DNA of 43,202 bases from an uncultured bacterium (GTDB lineage Bacteria > Cyanobacteriota > Vampirovibrionia > Gastranaerophilales > Gastranaerophilaceae). This document shows positions 4,335 to 9,198 of this stretch, piece after piece. The notes below the pieces were generated by a model. The model was not told the origin of the DNA. It saw only the letters and a program-made list of their open reading frames with translations, and ran no database searches. The stretch is from positions 1 to 43,202 of the forward strand of contig CADBFN010000015.1 of assembly GCA_902794035.1 (NCBI GenBank). The letters run 5' to 3'. Both the position numbers and the translations under genes were made by a program. Position 1 is the stretch's first letter. The number at the start of each line of letters is the position of its first letter.

Positions 4335-4343
4335 ATCAAGAAA

Positions 4344-4443
4344 CAAAGAGGAAATGAAGTGAATATCTTCAACTGCTGCCGCAGCCGTAATAGTCGGAAC
4401 ACTCAGGAATTTTAATTTTTCTACGTGCAGAATGGAAAAATTA
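4344..4443 (+). promoter_or_regulatory. Cobalamin riboswitch (short form, no P6 extension)
   Basis: The block matches the cobalamin aptamer core in order and spacing. GAG (4348-4350) and CUC (4402-4404) form P3. GAAG (4356-4359) and CUUC (4367-4370) form P4, with the 7-base loop UGAAUAU (family forms are UGCGAAU and UGAAAAU). P5 follows (CUG 4373-4375 with CAG 4382-4384) with loop CUGCCG. Next is CCGUAA and then AGUCGGAACACUC, the J6/3 consensus (compare AGUCGGAA-ACC in known members). The joining region is short, as in class II/env8-type aptamers. Downstream, taatttttc (4413-4421) and gaaaaatta (4435-4443) form a perfect 9-bp hairpin. Its loop contains GCAG, complementary to CUGC in the P5 loop: the expected L5-L13 kissing loop. 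Which cobalamin form it binds cannot be read from sequence. Confidence 0.8.
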
Positions 4444-4463: not shown

Positions 4464-4490
4464 TCCTCTTTGATTCAGAGAGGATTTTTT
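4464..4490 (+). promoter_or_regulatory. Riboswitch expression platform: hairpin overlapping the Shine-Dalgarno, followed by a T run
   Basis: tcctctttg (4464-4472) can pair with cagagagga (4476-4484), whose AGAGAGGA is the ribosome binding site of the gene at 4492. Six Ts follow directly, so the hairpin could act as a terminator, as an SD-hiding switch, or both. The same tcctctttg is perfectly complementary to caaagagga (4344-4352), the 5' strand that makes P3 of the aptamer. Without ligand that longer-range pairing could free the ribosome site; cobalamin binding would lock P3 and let the hairpin form. The predicted logic is OFF with cobalamin (inference). Confidence 0.65.
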
Positions 4491-4491
4491 A

Positions 4492-5178
4492 ATGCCAGTA
4501 GGAGCCGCACATATACATAACTCAAAAATAGGAACATGTCCGCATGGTATGCCTATGGGTGCTTGTCCTATATGCAGCGGAATGGCAGGCGGGAATTCTA
4601 CGACCAAAAGAGATACTCCAAGAAATGTTGGCGAAATGACTTACAATCAATGTGCAGCAATCGGAGCAATGTTAAAGGCACAAAAAGCTGCAAGACAAAG
4701 AGCCGAAGCAAATCAACAAAGTTTTATTCAGTCAATGGTACAATTTAACAAAAATCTTGAAAATGTTCATCAGAGAATTTTAGAATTTGCATCAAATATT
4801 TCGAGAACAATGCCTGCAATAATATCTGCACCTGCTAATTTTGTTCTTACTCAAATAGTTGCAAGAGTTATAAATATTATGGCAGGAATCCCGAATGTAA
4901 TGGCAAATTTTGCGCAAAAGTTTGTAGATATTGCAGACAAATTGGCGGCAGTTTACGGAGAACTGAAAGCATCAGTATCAAAATCATTATCAAATTTGAT
5001 GGGAAGTATAAAAAAGAAACTAAAATCAATTTTCTTTGTTTTTGGTACTGATGAAGCAGATGATGAAGAAAAGAAAATTGACGAAACACAAAAAGCATTT
5101 AATCTTAAAACATTTTTGCACAATCTTTCAAGAAAATTTAAACGTGACGAAGAAAGGATAGCAGAATATGAACATTAA
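4492..5178 (+). CDS. Unknown protein with N-terminal His/Cys motif, under a cobalamin riboswitch
   Basis: I cannot name the function of this 228-residue protein. The N-terminus carries H7, H9, C16, H18, C25 and C28 in 'CPHGMPMGACPIC', a compact potential metal-binding site (Zn, Fe, Co or similar), in a stretch rich in Gly, Met and Pro. Residues 50-110 are helical and Lys/Gln/Arg-rich. Residues about 110-170 form long amphipathic or weakly hydrophobic helices ('FVLTQIVARVINIMAGIPNVMANFA'-like, probably membrane-associated). The C-terminus is a charged helix. It overlaps the next gene by 11 bases, so the two are translationally coupled. The ribosome site AGAGAGGA is embedded in the riboswitch platform. 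By context it should be made when cobalamin is scarce, which hints at a role in corrinoid or metal acquisition, or in a process that replaces a B12-dependent one. This is inference only. Confidence 0.8.
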   Translation: MPVGAAHIHNSKIGTCPHGMPMGACPICSGMAGGNSTTKRDTPRNVGEMTYNQCAAIGAMLKAQKAARQRAEANQQSFIQSMVQFNKNLENVHQRILEFASNISRTMPAIISAPANFVLTQIVARVINIMAGIPNVMANFAQKFVDIADKLAAVYGELKASVSKSLSNLMGSIKKKLKSIFFVFGTDEADDEEKKIDETQKAFNLKTFLHNLSRKFKRDEERIAEYEH

Positions 5179-6685
5179 TCCTTTTGCAAATGAACAATTA
5201 ATTCAGCACAGAAATATGACTCAATCCCAAAAAAGAAATATAAATACGACAAAAGAAGGGGTTGTGGTAAATAGTTTTGTAAAAGATAATGAAGTATCAC
5301 TGTCAAATTTAAAAGATACGTTTGTGATTTCTGATGATATGCCAATGCCGTCAGAGTTATATAAAGATAATCAAATTATTGATAAAAAGTTATTACCTTT
5401 AAGCTCAATTGCTTTGGGTGTAATGGGCGCGATTGCAGGTTTAACAGGTTTTGTAAGATATAGCGCAAAAGCCTCAAAAAATCTTTCTAAAGAAAAATGG
5501 CTTCCTGCGGTTACAAGAAATGTTAATTTGAGTAAGGAAACTTCTCAGGTTATCTATCAGATGGTACAAAGTCCTAACAGTAAAACATTTATTGCCGGAG
5601 CCGGAGTTTTGACTCTCTCTGCAATGGCATTTATGGGTAAAACTTTTTTTGACGGCTTTAAAGATATTTGGGTAAAACGTAAAGAAGCAAATATTCAGAA
5701 AAATTTGCAGGAAAATTTGATTGCAGTAGAAACTCAATCCTTTTCTGGGAAAATGCAGATTATTCGTTCAATGCTTTCTAAATATACAAAAGAATTTGAA
5801 GGATTTTTAAATCCGCCGGAAGAAAAAACTGACACACCTTTTGGACGTAAGACTTTTGCTCAGTTCGCATTTAGTGCTAATGAGAATTTTGCCTCCTCAC
5901 AGGGGAAAATGCCGAAGGCAAAAGAAGAAAATAATTTTGGCAACATATTATTAGGGATTGGCACATTTGCAGGAATTGTCGGATTGGGATTTTTGTCGTT
6001 AAAGAACCTGACAAAAAGTAAAATGCACTTGCACGAAAGTCTTGAACAAACTAAAAAAGCCATAACAGAACTTGTAAAGACTTCAACAAAAGAAACAAAA
6101 AGCACAGATGAAGAAAATCTTGAACATATGTTTGTTGAAATTGAAAATTCCAAAGGGATAAAAGAATTTGTAAGAGAGCAAATCAGTAATTTGAGCTGGT
6201 CAAAAGAGGAAAAAGAAAATTTTGAGAAAAAAATAATTTCAAAAATTGAAACTTCGACCACAAAGGTTAATCCTAATATTGGTGGAGATGGAACCCCAAA
6301 ACCTGCATTTAATTCTTTTGTAGATGATTACAAAGCATTTTTCTATAATTGGCTGTTAGACACATCAAATCCGCAATTTGCTTTGTTGTTTGGCGGTATA
6401 ACAGGAATCACTGCAATCGGTTATGGCGGCAAGCTTGCGGGTGAAGCTCTTAAAGATGTACAGGTTAAAAAAATCAATGCACAAACCGAACTTGAATTGC
6501 AAAAACGCTTGGTATCAACAGAATTAAGAAACTTTAAAGCTAAAAAAGATTCAGCAATAACTCCGCTTGTAAAAGAATTTTACAAACAGGTCGATAGCGG
6601 AAAGCGTACAAAACAAGAATTAAAAACAATGGCAGAAAATATTTTGTTTGAAATCAAAAACGGCCCGCCATTTGTTTATTCATAA
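5168..6685 (+). CDS. Unknown multi-pass membrane protein, second gene of the cobalamin-regulated operon
   Basis: The protein has 505 residues and no family I recognise. Four hydrophobic segments stand out: around residues 76-95 ('SSIALGVMGAIAGLTGFV'), 138-155 ('AGAGVLTLSAMAFMG'), 260-280 ('GNILLGIGTFAGIVGLGFL') and 405-425 ('ALLFGGITGITAIGYGG'). Between and after them are long Lys/Glu-rich, probably coiled-coil stretches (290-350 and 430-490). The repeated plan of a small-residue-rich membrane segment followed by a charged helix suggests an internal duplication. The ATG at 5168 lies inside the end of the previous gene (ATGAACATTAA), so expression is coupled to the riboswitch-controlled first gene. 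Six bases separate its stop codon from the third gene. It is probably the membrane core of whatever complex this operon makes. Confidence 0.75.
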   Translation: MNINPFANEQLIQHRNMTQSQKRNINTTKEGVVVNSFVKDNEVSLSNLKDTFVISDDMPMPSELYKDNQIIDKKLLPLSSIALGVMGAIAGLTGFVRYSAKASKNLSKEKWLPAVTRNVNLSKETSQVIYQMVQSPNSKTFIAGAGVLTLSAMAFMGKTFFDGFKDIWVKRKEANIQKNLQENLIAVETQSFSGKMQIIRSMLSKYTKEFEGFLNPPEEKTDTPFGRKTFAQFAFSANENFASSQGKMPKAKEENNFGNILLGIGTFAGIVGLGFLSLKNLTKSKMHLHESLEQTKKAITELVKTSTKETKSTDEENLEHMFVEIENSKGIKEFVREQISNLSWSKEEKENFEKKIISKIETSTTKVNPNIGGDGTPKPAFNSFVDDYKAFFYNWLLDTSNPQFALLFGGITGITAIGYGGKLAGEALKDVQVKKINAQTELELQKRLVSTELRNFKAKKDSAITPLVKEFYKQVDSGKRTKQELKTMAENILFEIKNGPPFVYS

Positions 6686-6690
6686 AAATT

Positions 6691-7170
6691 ATGATTCAAT
6701 CTGTTACTCAATATAATATTAATCCATACCCGCGATATATTTGTGCTTCTGCTCAATTACCGACAAAAGACAGAAATTATTGTGTATTTGATAAAAACGA
6801 AGTAGATTATTTTGTAAAACAAAAAGAGAATGCCCTGCCGTATTTGACAGATATTTTGGAACATTCAAATAATGAAGCGCAGGTAACCGAAACTCTTTAT
6901 ATAATGGACAGAATGATTGATAACGGAACAAAGGGGATTGATAAACTTTATCCTGTTTTTTCAAGATTTAATGAAACTCAATCGCCAAATATTCAGACAT
7001 TTTTGGCAGGGATTTACCGTAAAATTCAGGTTCCGGATGCTTTCGGTCCGTTATGTAAAATGCTTATACAAAATTCAATGAAACCGTATAATCCCAATCA
7101 GACTTTTAATCCGAATGAAGAAATCGGCGGTGCTATTTTAAGTTACCTGTCCGACAGGTGGCGGGGGTAA
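6691..7170 (+). CDS. Unknown small protein, possibly helical-repeat, third gene of the operon
   Basis: The protein has 159 residues. It starts at the ATG 6 bases after the previous stop codon, so it belongs to the same transcript as the cobalamin-regulated genes. Residues about 35-150 look like pairs of short helices ('NALPYLTDILEHS', 'QVTETLYIMDRMIDNG', 'NIQTFLAGIYRKI', 'GGAILSYLSDRW') that recall HEAT-like repeats used as protein scaffolds. There is no signal peptide or membrane segment. It may be a cytosolic partner of the membrane protein at 5168-6685. The C-terminal half is Asn/Pro-rich. Confidence 0.7.
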   Translation: MIQSVTQYNINPYPRYICASAQLPTKDRNYCVFDKNEVDYFVKQKENALPYLTDILEHSNNEAQVTETLYIMDRMIDNGTKGIDKLYPVFSRFNETQSPNIQTFLAGIYRKIQVPDAFGPLCKMLIQNSMKPYNPNQTFNPNEEIGGAILSYLSDRWRG

Positions 7171-7673: not shown

Positions 7674-7691
7674 AAACAAATATTGTTTTTT
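7673..7691 (+). terminator. Terminator of atpC
   Basis: AAAACAA (7673-7679) pairs with TTGTTTT (7683-7689) and runs into Ts. It overlaps the stop codon of the convergent prepilin-like gene, so it may act in both directions. The stem is weak (A-T rich). Confidence 0.45.
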
Positions 7692-8415
7692 AGTATTCCA
7701 TTTCCCAGGAATCTGCAACTAATTTTTCATAGCACCATGCTTCACGGACTTTTATAGAGTTATTGTTATCTGCTCCGGTGCAATGAGTTTTCAGGTATCC
7801 TGCATTACTTGCATGGCTTGGAGTTTCTACTCCTCCTCCAACAACTTTTCCTTTTTTGGTGACAAAAAATCCAAACAAATCACGCCCCAAAATATTTGGT
7901 TTTTTAGGGCCATTAATATCTATTACAAAATATCCGACTTCATTACTTGTAATACCGCTGGCACCTGTTGTAGAAGCTAACATATATTTGATAGTTGCAC
8001 CATTTTTTAAAATTGCGGATTTTCCGGCTCTGGCTGTACTTAATGATGGCAAGGAATTGTCATAAGTAGAACCTTTAATATTTTTGTATTTTACCTGATT
8101 TGATACTCCTGATTTTGTTTTCCAACAATTGGTTATGGCATCATTTGCACTAGAGCATAATTTCACTATTAAAAAATTTTTATCAGATACAAGTGTTTCA
8201 GGATCTCCAAAATCTGTATCGCTTAAATCTCTTGTATGGTGCATTATTAGCTGATCCTGCGCAAGTTGTTCGATAGTCGCTGACATATTTTTTATCTGAG
8301 AAACAAATGTTTTGTTATGCACATTATTAAGCAATACAGGAATGGTCAGTGTTGCAACAACGCCTATAATAACCAGTGATAACAATAATTCAGATAGTGT
8401 AAAACCCTTTCTCAT
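7690..8415 (-). CDS. Type IV prepilin-like protein (pseudopilin)
   Basis: A prepilin-like protein of 241 residues. The N-terminus 'MRKGFTLSELLLSLVIIGVV' is a textbook class III signal: cleavage after G4, methylated F+1, E+5, then a hydrophobic helix. The globular part carries 'FVIDINGPKKPNILGRDLFG', a Ca-loop-like acidic motif shared with other prepilin-like proteins of this window, and four late cysteines. I start at the ATG at 8415, preceded by a good GGAG ribosome site; the longer open frame to 8529 overlaps the upstream gene and destroys the prepilin signature. It follows another prepilin-like gene by 52 bases, so the two form a small operon. The product is probably a minor pilin or pseudopilin handled by a GspF/PilC-type platform such as that at 1322-2365. 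Confidence 0.88.
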   Translation of the reverse strand: MRKGFTLSELLLSLVIIGVVATLTIPVLLNNVHNKTFVSQIKNMSATIEQLAQDQLIMHHTRDLSDTDFGDPETLVSDKNFLIVKLCSSANDAITNCWKTKSGVSNQVKYKNIKGSTYDNSLPSLSTARAGKSAILKNGATIKYMLASTTGASGITSNEVGYFVIDINGPKKPNILGRDLFGFFVTKKGKVVGGGVETPSHASNAGYLKTHCTGADNNNSIKVREAWCYEKLVADSWEMEY

Positions 8416-8467
8416 AAAATATGCTCCTTTTTTAGTAATTATAACAAATTTTCTTATCTGTTGCAAT

Positions 8468-9136
8468 TTATTCCAAATATTTAGGATTAAAGCTTGATAG
8501 TTCAACCATTCGGTAGCATGCTGCTCCATTTCCGTTATTGCAGCTTTGTTTTAAGCCCGGGCCTGATTCTTGACCTTCATCACCACCGTTTGCAAAAGAA
8601 GACGTATCCCCTGCTTTGTGTCCGCTGCCGTTTTCTCTTTCAATTTTCAGTATAAAATAATCTGCTCCGACCATATTTGGCTCTTTTGCTCCGGTAACAT
8701 CTATAACAACAGTTGTTGTGTTGTTACCTGAATTGTTAATTATGCCAATACCTACTCCATTTTTCAAAAGTGTTGCTGCTTCTCCTTCTCTGTCATTTGA
8801 AGGAATAAGAACTCCGGTTGCTTTTTTTGCATCAGAATGTTTTTTATACGAATCTGCAAAAGGTTCGCCATTAGGTGCAGTATCAAACTTTTGTAAAAAA
8901 GCTTCGGGATCTTTATAGATATCAGTATCAATCAGAGAATTTGCTCTGGATTTAGTGAATTCTATTTCTGTAACATTGTTGATGTTCGCAACTGTGTTTT
9001 TTAATAGTGCCATTCGCGATTTTAAATGAACATCTTTGACAATACTTGGAATAGTAAGTACTGCAATAATACCTGTAATCATTACCGCCATCAATACTTC
9101 ACCCAGAGTAAATCCGTTTCTTTTTAAGCTAATCAT
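8468..9136 (-). CDS. Type IV prepilin-like protein (pseudopilin), first of a pair
   Basis: A 222-residue prepilin-like protein. 'MISLKRNGFTLGEVLMAVMI' gives a leader of eight residues ending in G, then F+1 and E+5 and a hydrophobic helix. The globular domain has 'VVIDVTGAKEPNMVGADYF', equivalent to the D-x-N-G-P motif of its downstream neighbour. The C-terminal part is rich in Gly/Ser/Asn with two cysteines near the end. I use the ATG at 9136 because a GAGG ribosome site precedes it and the leader then has a normal length; the frame is open to 9193. A -10 box (TATAAT on the minus strand, 9178-9173) gives a short leader and lies back to back with the promoter of the divergent gene at 9259. Confidence 0.87.
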   Translation of the reverse strand: MISLKRNGFTLGEVLMAVMITGIIAVLTIPSIVKDVHLKSRMALLKNTVANINNVTEIEFTKSRANSLIDTDIYKDPEAFLQKFDTAPNGEPFADSYKKHSDAKKATGVLIPSNDREGEAATLLKNGVGIGIINNSGNNTTTVVIDVTGAKEPNMVGADYFILKIERENGSGHKAGDTSSFANGGDEGQESGPGLKQSCNNGNGAACYRMVELSSFNPKYLE

Positions 9137-9198
9137 AATAACCTCATATTTTGTTTCATTTATAACTTTATCATTATAAGTGCAAAATTTCAATTATC

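Follow-up and report, generated by a model that had tools for sequence, protein, structure and literature searches.

The DNA analysed here, called the window, is a stretch of 43,202 nucleotides from an uncultured bacterium of the family Gastranaerophilaceae (order Gastranaerophilales, phylum Cyanobacteriota), read on the forward strand of contig 15 (CADBFN010000015.1, positions 1 to 43,202) of a 1.79 Mb assembly (GCA_902794035.1). Our subject is a three-gene operon at positions 4492-7170, in which the open reading frames (ORFs) P1, P2 and P3 lie in the same direction on the plus strand behind a cobalamin riboswitch. P1 (4492-5178) encodes 228 residues with amphipathic helices and the motif CPHGx3GxCPxC at residues 16-28; P2 (5168-6685), which overlaps P1 by 11 bases, encodes a predicted inner-membrane protein of 505 residues whose transmembrane segments lead into long helices; and P3 (6691-7170) encodes a predicted armadillo/HEAT-like adaptor of 159 residues. 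An initial annotation of this DNA had placed the operon under a cobalamin riboswitch, and the element is indeed there, at 4335-4409, just outside the interval it had marked. In a bacterium that apparently needs vitamin B12 and is devoid of the usual routes searched for making or importing it, these genes may constitute an undescribed way to obtain the vitamin. The novelty lies in the proteins, whereas the riboswitch adds one more example to a family already described.

The aptamer (4335-4409, on the plus strand like all leader features given here) matches the model of the AdoCbl-II (adenosylcobalamin, AdoCbl) riboswitch, RF01689, with 39.0 bits (E 6.4e-06), over the gathering score of 36.5. 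From the aptamer to the start codon, the leader holds the P13 stem-loop (4413-4443, with an 11-bp stem in the window and the loop core CGTGC at 4424-4428), then a hairpin TCCTCT...AGAGGA (4464-4484) whose 3′ arm contains the P1 Shine-Dalgarno sequence, then a U tract and the ATG. The L5 loop of the aptamer, GCCG (4378-4381), is the kissing partner of L13. These features recur in the 81 leaders that we compared. At one fixed geometry, P13 is 83% paired among 50 distinct sequences, whereas 1000 shuffles, which ignore relatedness, average 65% and never exceed 70%, the 26/81 leaders without the core pattern being left out of this test. Furthermore, the L5 and L13 sequences change in concert: an L5 of GCCG is matched by CGNGC in 62/65 leaders (L13 was not found in the other three) and GGCG by CGCNC in 9/9, with no contrary case, 10 of these 71 leaders fitting both patterns and 7/81 being unclassified. 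A Shine-Dalgarno sequence with an upstream anti-Shine-Dalgarno strand is present in 70/81 leaders, and the remaining 11 fall outside our search patterns.

The 5′ strand of the aptamer offers the anti-Shine-Dalgarno strand a second pairing partner, complementary over at least 6 bases in 66/71 leaders, a complementarity that is partly aptamer consensus. In the window it extends over 8 bases, the aptamer strand AAAGAGGA (4345-4352) being the exact complement of 4464-4471, and the two competing duplexes are nearly equal in energy (-13.5 and -13.1 kcal/mol). These alternative pairings suggest a switch that masks the Shine-Dalgarno sequence when AdoCbl is present: without the ligand, AAAGAGGA would pair with TCCTCTTT and leave the Shine-Dalgarno free, and with it the TCCTCT strand would cover the Shine-Dalgarno. 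In two other families (leaders L031 and L033) we recognized by eye a terminator-like hairpin in place of the Shine-Dalgarno hairpin. Taken together, the covarying P13, the L5-L13 kissing loop and the Shine-Dalgarno hairpin predict that B12 probably switches the P1-P3 operon off. The window's element thus shares with known AdoCbl-II riboswitches an aptamer over the gathering score, the kissing loop, P13 and a sequestered Shine-Dalgarno; it differs from them in controlling three families without trusted relatives, and not btu, cob or isozyme genes.

The association of riboswitch and operon is close to universal. Our main comparison set comprised 40 genomes of the order, the window's own included, 25 of them in its genus. 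By coordinates, 32 of the 34 P1 genomes in this set have an AdoCbl-II element directly before the gene, and none was found in G029 and G032, both of which keep NrdJ. Rfam scans of individual loci detected the riboswitch in 15/15 cases in one batch and at 9/10 P1 loci in another, two of the nine scoring below the gathering score, and our own covariance model (R1) placed it upstream of P1 in 80/80 further loci, some of whose genomes had also supplied model sequences. In a second set, of 80 f1 genomes chosen from a P2-model search of 386 genomes of the phylum, the Rfam model gave a riboswitch beside P2 in 63 of the 64 genomes with coordinates (the exception is G266), positions not being listed for five more P2-positive genomes. 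Operons that lack the riboswitch, which the initial annotation had expected to predominate if its idea were wrong, are rare. One assembly, G002, carries two riboswitch-P1 copies, on contigs 27 and 54; it is 8% contaminated and perhaps represents two strains.

None of the three proteins reaches a family cut-off in Pfam or NCBIfam, PHROGs gives weak matches only and no PDB sequence matches under E 0.16, in keeping with the initial annotation, which had called the three genes unknown. In P1, residues C16, P17, H18, G19, G23, C25, P26, C28 and G30 are invariant in 19/19 sequences from five families and in 68/68 members of a larger alignment. The four-ligand set CxHx6CxxC (C16, H18, C25, C28) noticed in the initial annotation is therefore invariant; H7 and H9, which it had counted with them, are not conserved. 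Hydropathy suggests that P1 and P3 are soluble proteins. In P2, for which four membrane helices had first been described, it shows three clear hydrophobic segments (78-96, 139-157 and 260-278) and perhaps a fourth near 400-420, seen by eye only. The C-terminal part of P2 is strongly conserved among 66 aligned sequences, and its AlphaFold model shows long helices with low confidence (mean predicted local distance difference test score, pLDDT, 61.9; predicted template modelling score 0.42). P3 had been described as a small helical-repeat protein, and its confident model (pLDDT 88.6) looks like an armadillo/HEAT-type helical repeat; the resemblance to armadillo/HEAT proteins is one of predicted fold, without trusted sequence relatives, and, with a best Foldseek E of 0.26, may reflect only a common arrangement.

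Several weak similarities were set aside. For P1, the matches to EzrA, YtvI and a phage tape measure protein are below every curated cut-off; its alignment members touch 35 Pfam families at E ≤ 0.01, scattered and weak, the commonest among the matches listed being Baculo_PEP_C and SesA (15/68 each), and Cob_adeno_trans is touched by 1/68 (E 0.0038). We believe none of these, nor the one Pfam family weakly matched by the P3 alignment members. P2 matches the ATP-binding cassette (ABC) permease model PhnE with E 9.1e-05 but only 22.0 of the 216.7 bits needed, and CorA with 13.4 of 27 bits; its best Foldseek hit has an E of 0.34, and we gave no weight to the helical pore formers found among many matches. 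A mobile origin, which in the form of phage parts would have told against the initial annotation, was likewise rejected: no P1 relative was found in viral contigs (26 pattern matches, none confirmed) or in phages, and no P2 relative in plasmids. The P1 relatives in named genomes, of which the best 80 of 228 were kept, include many from rumen or gut samples or with titles of the kind Candidatus Gastranaerophilales or Melainabacteria. An N-terminal FxG motif sought across the order was dropped, as it occurs in 21/1080 ORFs against 38/1080 in a mid-protein window.

Some loci lack P2 or P3 while P1 stays, which designates P1 as the core protein. In the family f3 genomes (L088-L090) and in G034 (L086), P1-P2 has no adjoining P3-like ORF. 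Conversely, in two P2-negative genomes the riboswitch, P1 and P3 are kept and a second P3-like gene, which follows P3, occupies the place of P2 (loci L214:5460-7381 in G208 and L215:1-1842 in G402). The four P1 Cys/His residues are kept in both of them, and G23 is lost in one.

How is the operon distributed with respect to the need for B12 and its supply? In the window's genus, P1 is present in 25/25 genomes and the AdoCbl-dependent NrdJ in 21/25. The FecCD permease, the TonB plug and CobS were each found in 0/25, ECF (energy-coupling factor), BtuM and adenosyltransferase genes not being among those searched. Through the 40 genomes of the order, NrdJ occurs in 35, and the FecCD match is absent from 34, the TonB plug from 35 and CobS from 37, the three CobS genomes all being without P1. 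Among the 29 NrdJ genomes that have neither FecCD nor CobS, 28 carry P1, against two (G030 and G035, not G025, G031, G033 or G039) of the six that have one or the other (Fisher p 0.0014, relatedness ignored); these figures leave out as BtuC one weak FecCD match in G036 (28.1 bits for a cut-off of 26.5), which if counted would make them 27/28 and 3/7. P1 is therefore distributed in complement to FecCD and CobS in the NrdJ-bearing relatives, and the check proposed in the initial annotation comes out as it had anticipated, the riboswitch tracking the operon and the operon tracking the absence of btu and cob genes. A weak PF02310 protein of about 850 residues in the genus, whose neighbour we take to be a ribonuclease E/G, was left out of the tally of established B12 enzymes.

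In a wider survey, the P2 model matches 162 of the 386 phylum genomes, all 162 in the same order. In the f1 set NrdJ is over the cut-off in 53/80 genomes, four with matches below it (G048, G191, G199 and G237) being counted as lacking the enzyme. It is missing from 8 of the 11 P2-negative genomes and from 19 of the 69 P2-positive ones, the other 50 having it (Fisher p 0.0056, relatedness ignored). No riboswitch was seen, under stricter filters, in 8 of the 11 P2-negatives and in one P2-positive, G266. Eight f1 genomes have neither NrdJ nor riboswitch, and of these only G266 keeps P2, presence of the system in the riboswitch-free P2-negatives being judged by P2 and the riboswitch and not by P1 itself. 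Loss of the riboswitch, itself an element of the operon, adds no independent evidence, unlike the link with NrdJ. Counting G208 and G402 with the 50 P2-positive genomes, the system is present in 52 of the 53 f1 genomes with NrdJ.

We favour, with a probability of roughly 0.48, the reading that P1-P2-P3 form a cobamide-acquisition system, for uptake or salvage of complete cobamides, translated when AdoCbl is scarce. Its computed basis is a complete riboswitch, a leader able to hide the P1 Shine-Dalgarno sequence, three coupled genes and a near-universal linkage, together with the complementary distribution just described: genomes whose NrdJ has no other supply among those searched almost always carry the system, which argues for acquisition. 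In such a mechanism, AdoCbl binding would repress the operon. P1 would be the working core, with CxHx6CxxC as a structural metal knuckle or a corrinoid-handling part, and in genomes that have P2 would act on it at the membrane, and P3 might serve as a peptide-groove adaptor. Passage through the outer membrane via porins is a guess, made because this riboswitch precedes OprB porin genes in two relatives that branch deeply. A more specific version, which we hold more tentatively still, is that of a new B12 route of diderms, in which a cobamide-handling complex built round the CxHx6CxxC protein, with no TonB receptor, BtuCDF or known-importer part, would supply AdoCbl to NrdJ throughout this genus of gut bacteria.

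Several observations weigh against acquisition. Four genomes of the genus (G003, G006, G014 and G020) have P1 without NrdJ, and 19 of the 27 f1 genomes without a full NrdJ keep the system. Conversely, NrdJ is found without P1 in G027 and without P2 or riboswitch in G219, the exception among the 53. The system coexists with btuBCDF in G030, G035, G260 and G070. P2, the only clear membrane protein of the three, is absent from G208 and G402, which keep NrdJ, and no transporter or ATPase family reaches its cut-off for P1-P3. Moreover, the genomes are related, so the presence counts are not independent. As to the genomes without NrdJ, G260 is one of them, yet it carries btuBCDF behind the riboswitch, so a genome without NrdJ may still use B12.

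The best-known route of B12 uptake, BtuB-BtuCDF, is found in this order downstream of AdoCbl-II elements as well (in G030, G035, G031 and G033, and in G260 and G070, where permease and ATPase were named by eye), and P1-P3 would share its purpose. None of them, however, is a TonB receptor, FecCD permease, ABC ATPase or periplasmic binding protein, and no Btu protein is among their listed Pfam or NCBIfam matches. Importers of the ECF-CbrT and BtuM types take up B12 independently of TonB and BtuC, and so would P1-P3 if the acquisition reading is right; P1-P3 match none of them in Pfam or NCBIfam at E ≤ 5.

The same lack of a trusted transport family, and the apparent solubility of P1 and P3, could instead point inside the cell, where the three proteins would serve to store, protect, adenosylate or pass on cobamides taken up through some other, undetected route. 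That P2 is dispensable in G208 and G402 fits this idea, as does the invariant CxHx6CxxC, which could bind a metal or a corrinoid. However, repression by AdoCbl would suit an importer better than a chaperone, which is needed when AdoCbl is plentiful, and the anticorrelation with FecCD and CobS points to supply. We consider intracellular handling unlikely, at about one chance in five.

The initial annotation had also raised the replacement of a B12-dependent task, in the way of nrdD and metE, and the isozymes nrdD and metE are the commonest other targets of this riboswitch in the order. The 19 genomes that keep the system without a full NrdJ would be expected on this account. On the other hand, a substitute should survive where B12 is given up, and the system is missing mostly where NrdJ is missing (8/11 of the P2-negatives); no enzyme family reaches its cut-off among P1-P3 and no homology to MetE or NrdD was found in Pfam or NCBIfam. 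Of the functions first proposed, corrinoid import or salvage is thus favoured and replacement, which fits less well, is improbable. Less probable again is an envelope or cell-surface structure induced by B12 scarcity, for adhesion, secretion or competition, that would not touch corrinoids at all: the long helices, the membrane segments and matches that are weak and to coiled coils only would suit it, but a hydrophobic stretch at the N-terminus is found by hydropathy in none of the three proteins, and throughout the order the operon goes with indications that B12 is needed. Cobalt import, another of the earlier proposals, here as a supply for corrinoid synthesis, is very improbable despite the invariant Cys/His cluster of P1 and a cbiM-like gene behind the same riboswitch in G039, given that CobS, and with it corrinoid assembly, was detected in no genome of the genus and elsewhere in the set only in three genomes without P1.

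If P1-P3 obtain B12, they would represent a new class of vitamin acquisition and would give a function to three unannotated protein families. Gut bacteria both share B12 and contend for it, and the genes would help to predict which of them compete; the riboswitch and the presence pattern offer direct ways to test the claim. Among the matches listed for open-licence literature on the group together with cobalamin, vitamin B12 or cobamide, titles and abstract starts mention no such system, and no open-licence paper was found on Gastranaerophilales and riboswitches. The part of the article of Di Rienzi 2013 (PMC3787301) available to us lists vitamins B2, B3, B7 and B9, with B5 in the gut types and K in some of them, and searching it for B12 or cobalamin as terms gives nothing.

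The other genes behind this riboswitch in the order mostly belong to B12 supply or encode B12-independent isozymes: nrdDG, metE, btuB-btuC-btuD-btuF, cobT (DBI_PRT match, E 2.4e-137), OprB porins and the cbiM-like gene, where NrdD, NrdG, MetE, BtuD, BtuF and CbiM were named by eye from sequence unless a family match is cited. The porins (E 5.9e-63 and 4.7e-38; L068:2567-3985 in G027 and L082:423-1724 in G039, the latter adjoining the cbiM-like gene) are candidate outer-membrane channels for B12 or cobalt. In G294 a B12-binding radical S-adenosylmethionine protein (L223:202-1578) lies behind the same riboswitch family.

In the window's own assembly two AdoCbl-II elements were found, that of the P1 operon and a second on contig 7 (L003:1501-1575, G000), followed by a NrdD-like ORF from 1608 and then an activase-like ORF; this genome thus has the riboswitch before nrdD although the B12-dependent NrdJ is also present. 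Downstream of P3, the ORFs at 7690-8529 and 8468-9193 have N-termini (GFTLSELLLSLVIIG... and GFTLGEVLMAVMITG...) that resemble prepilins by eye.

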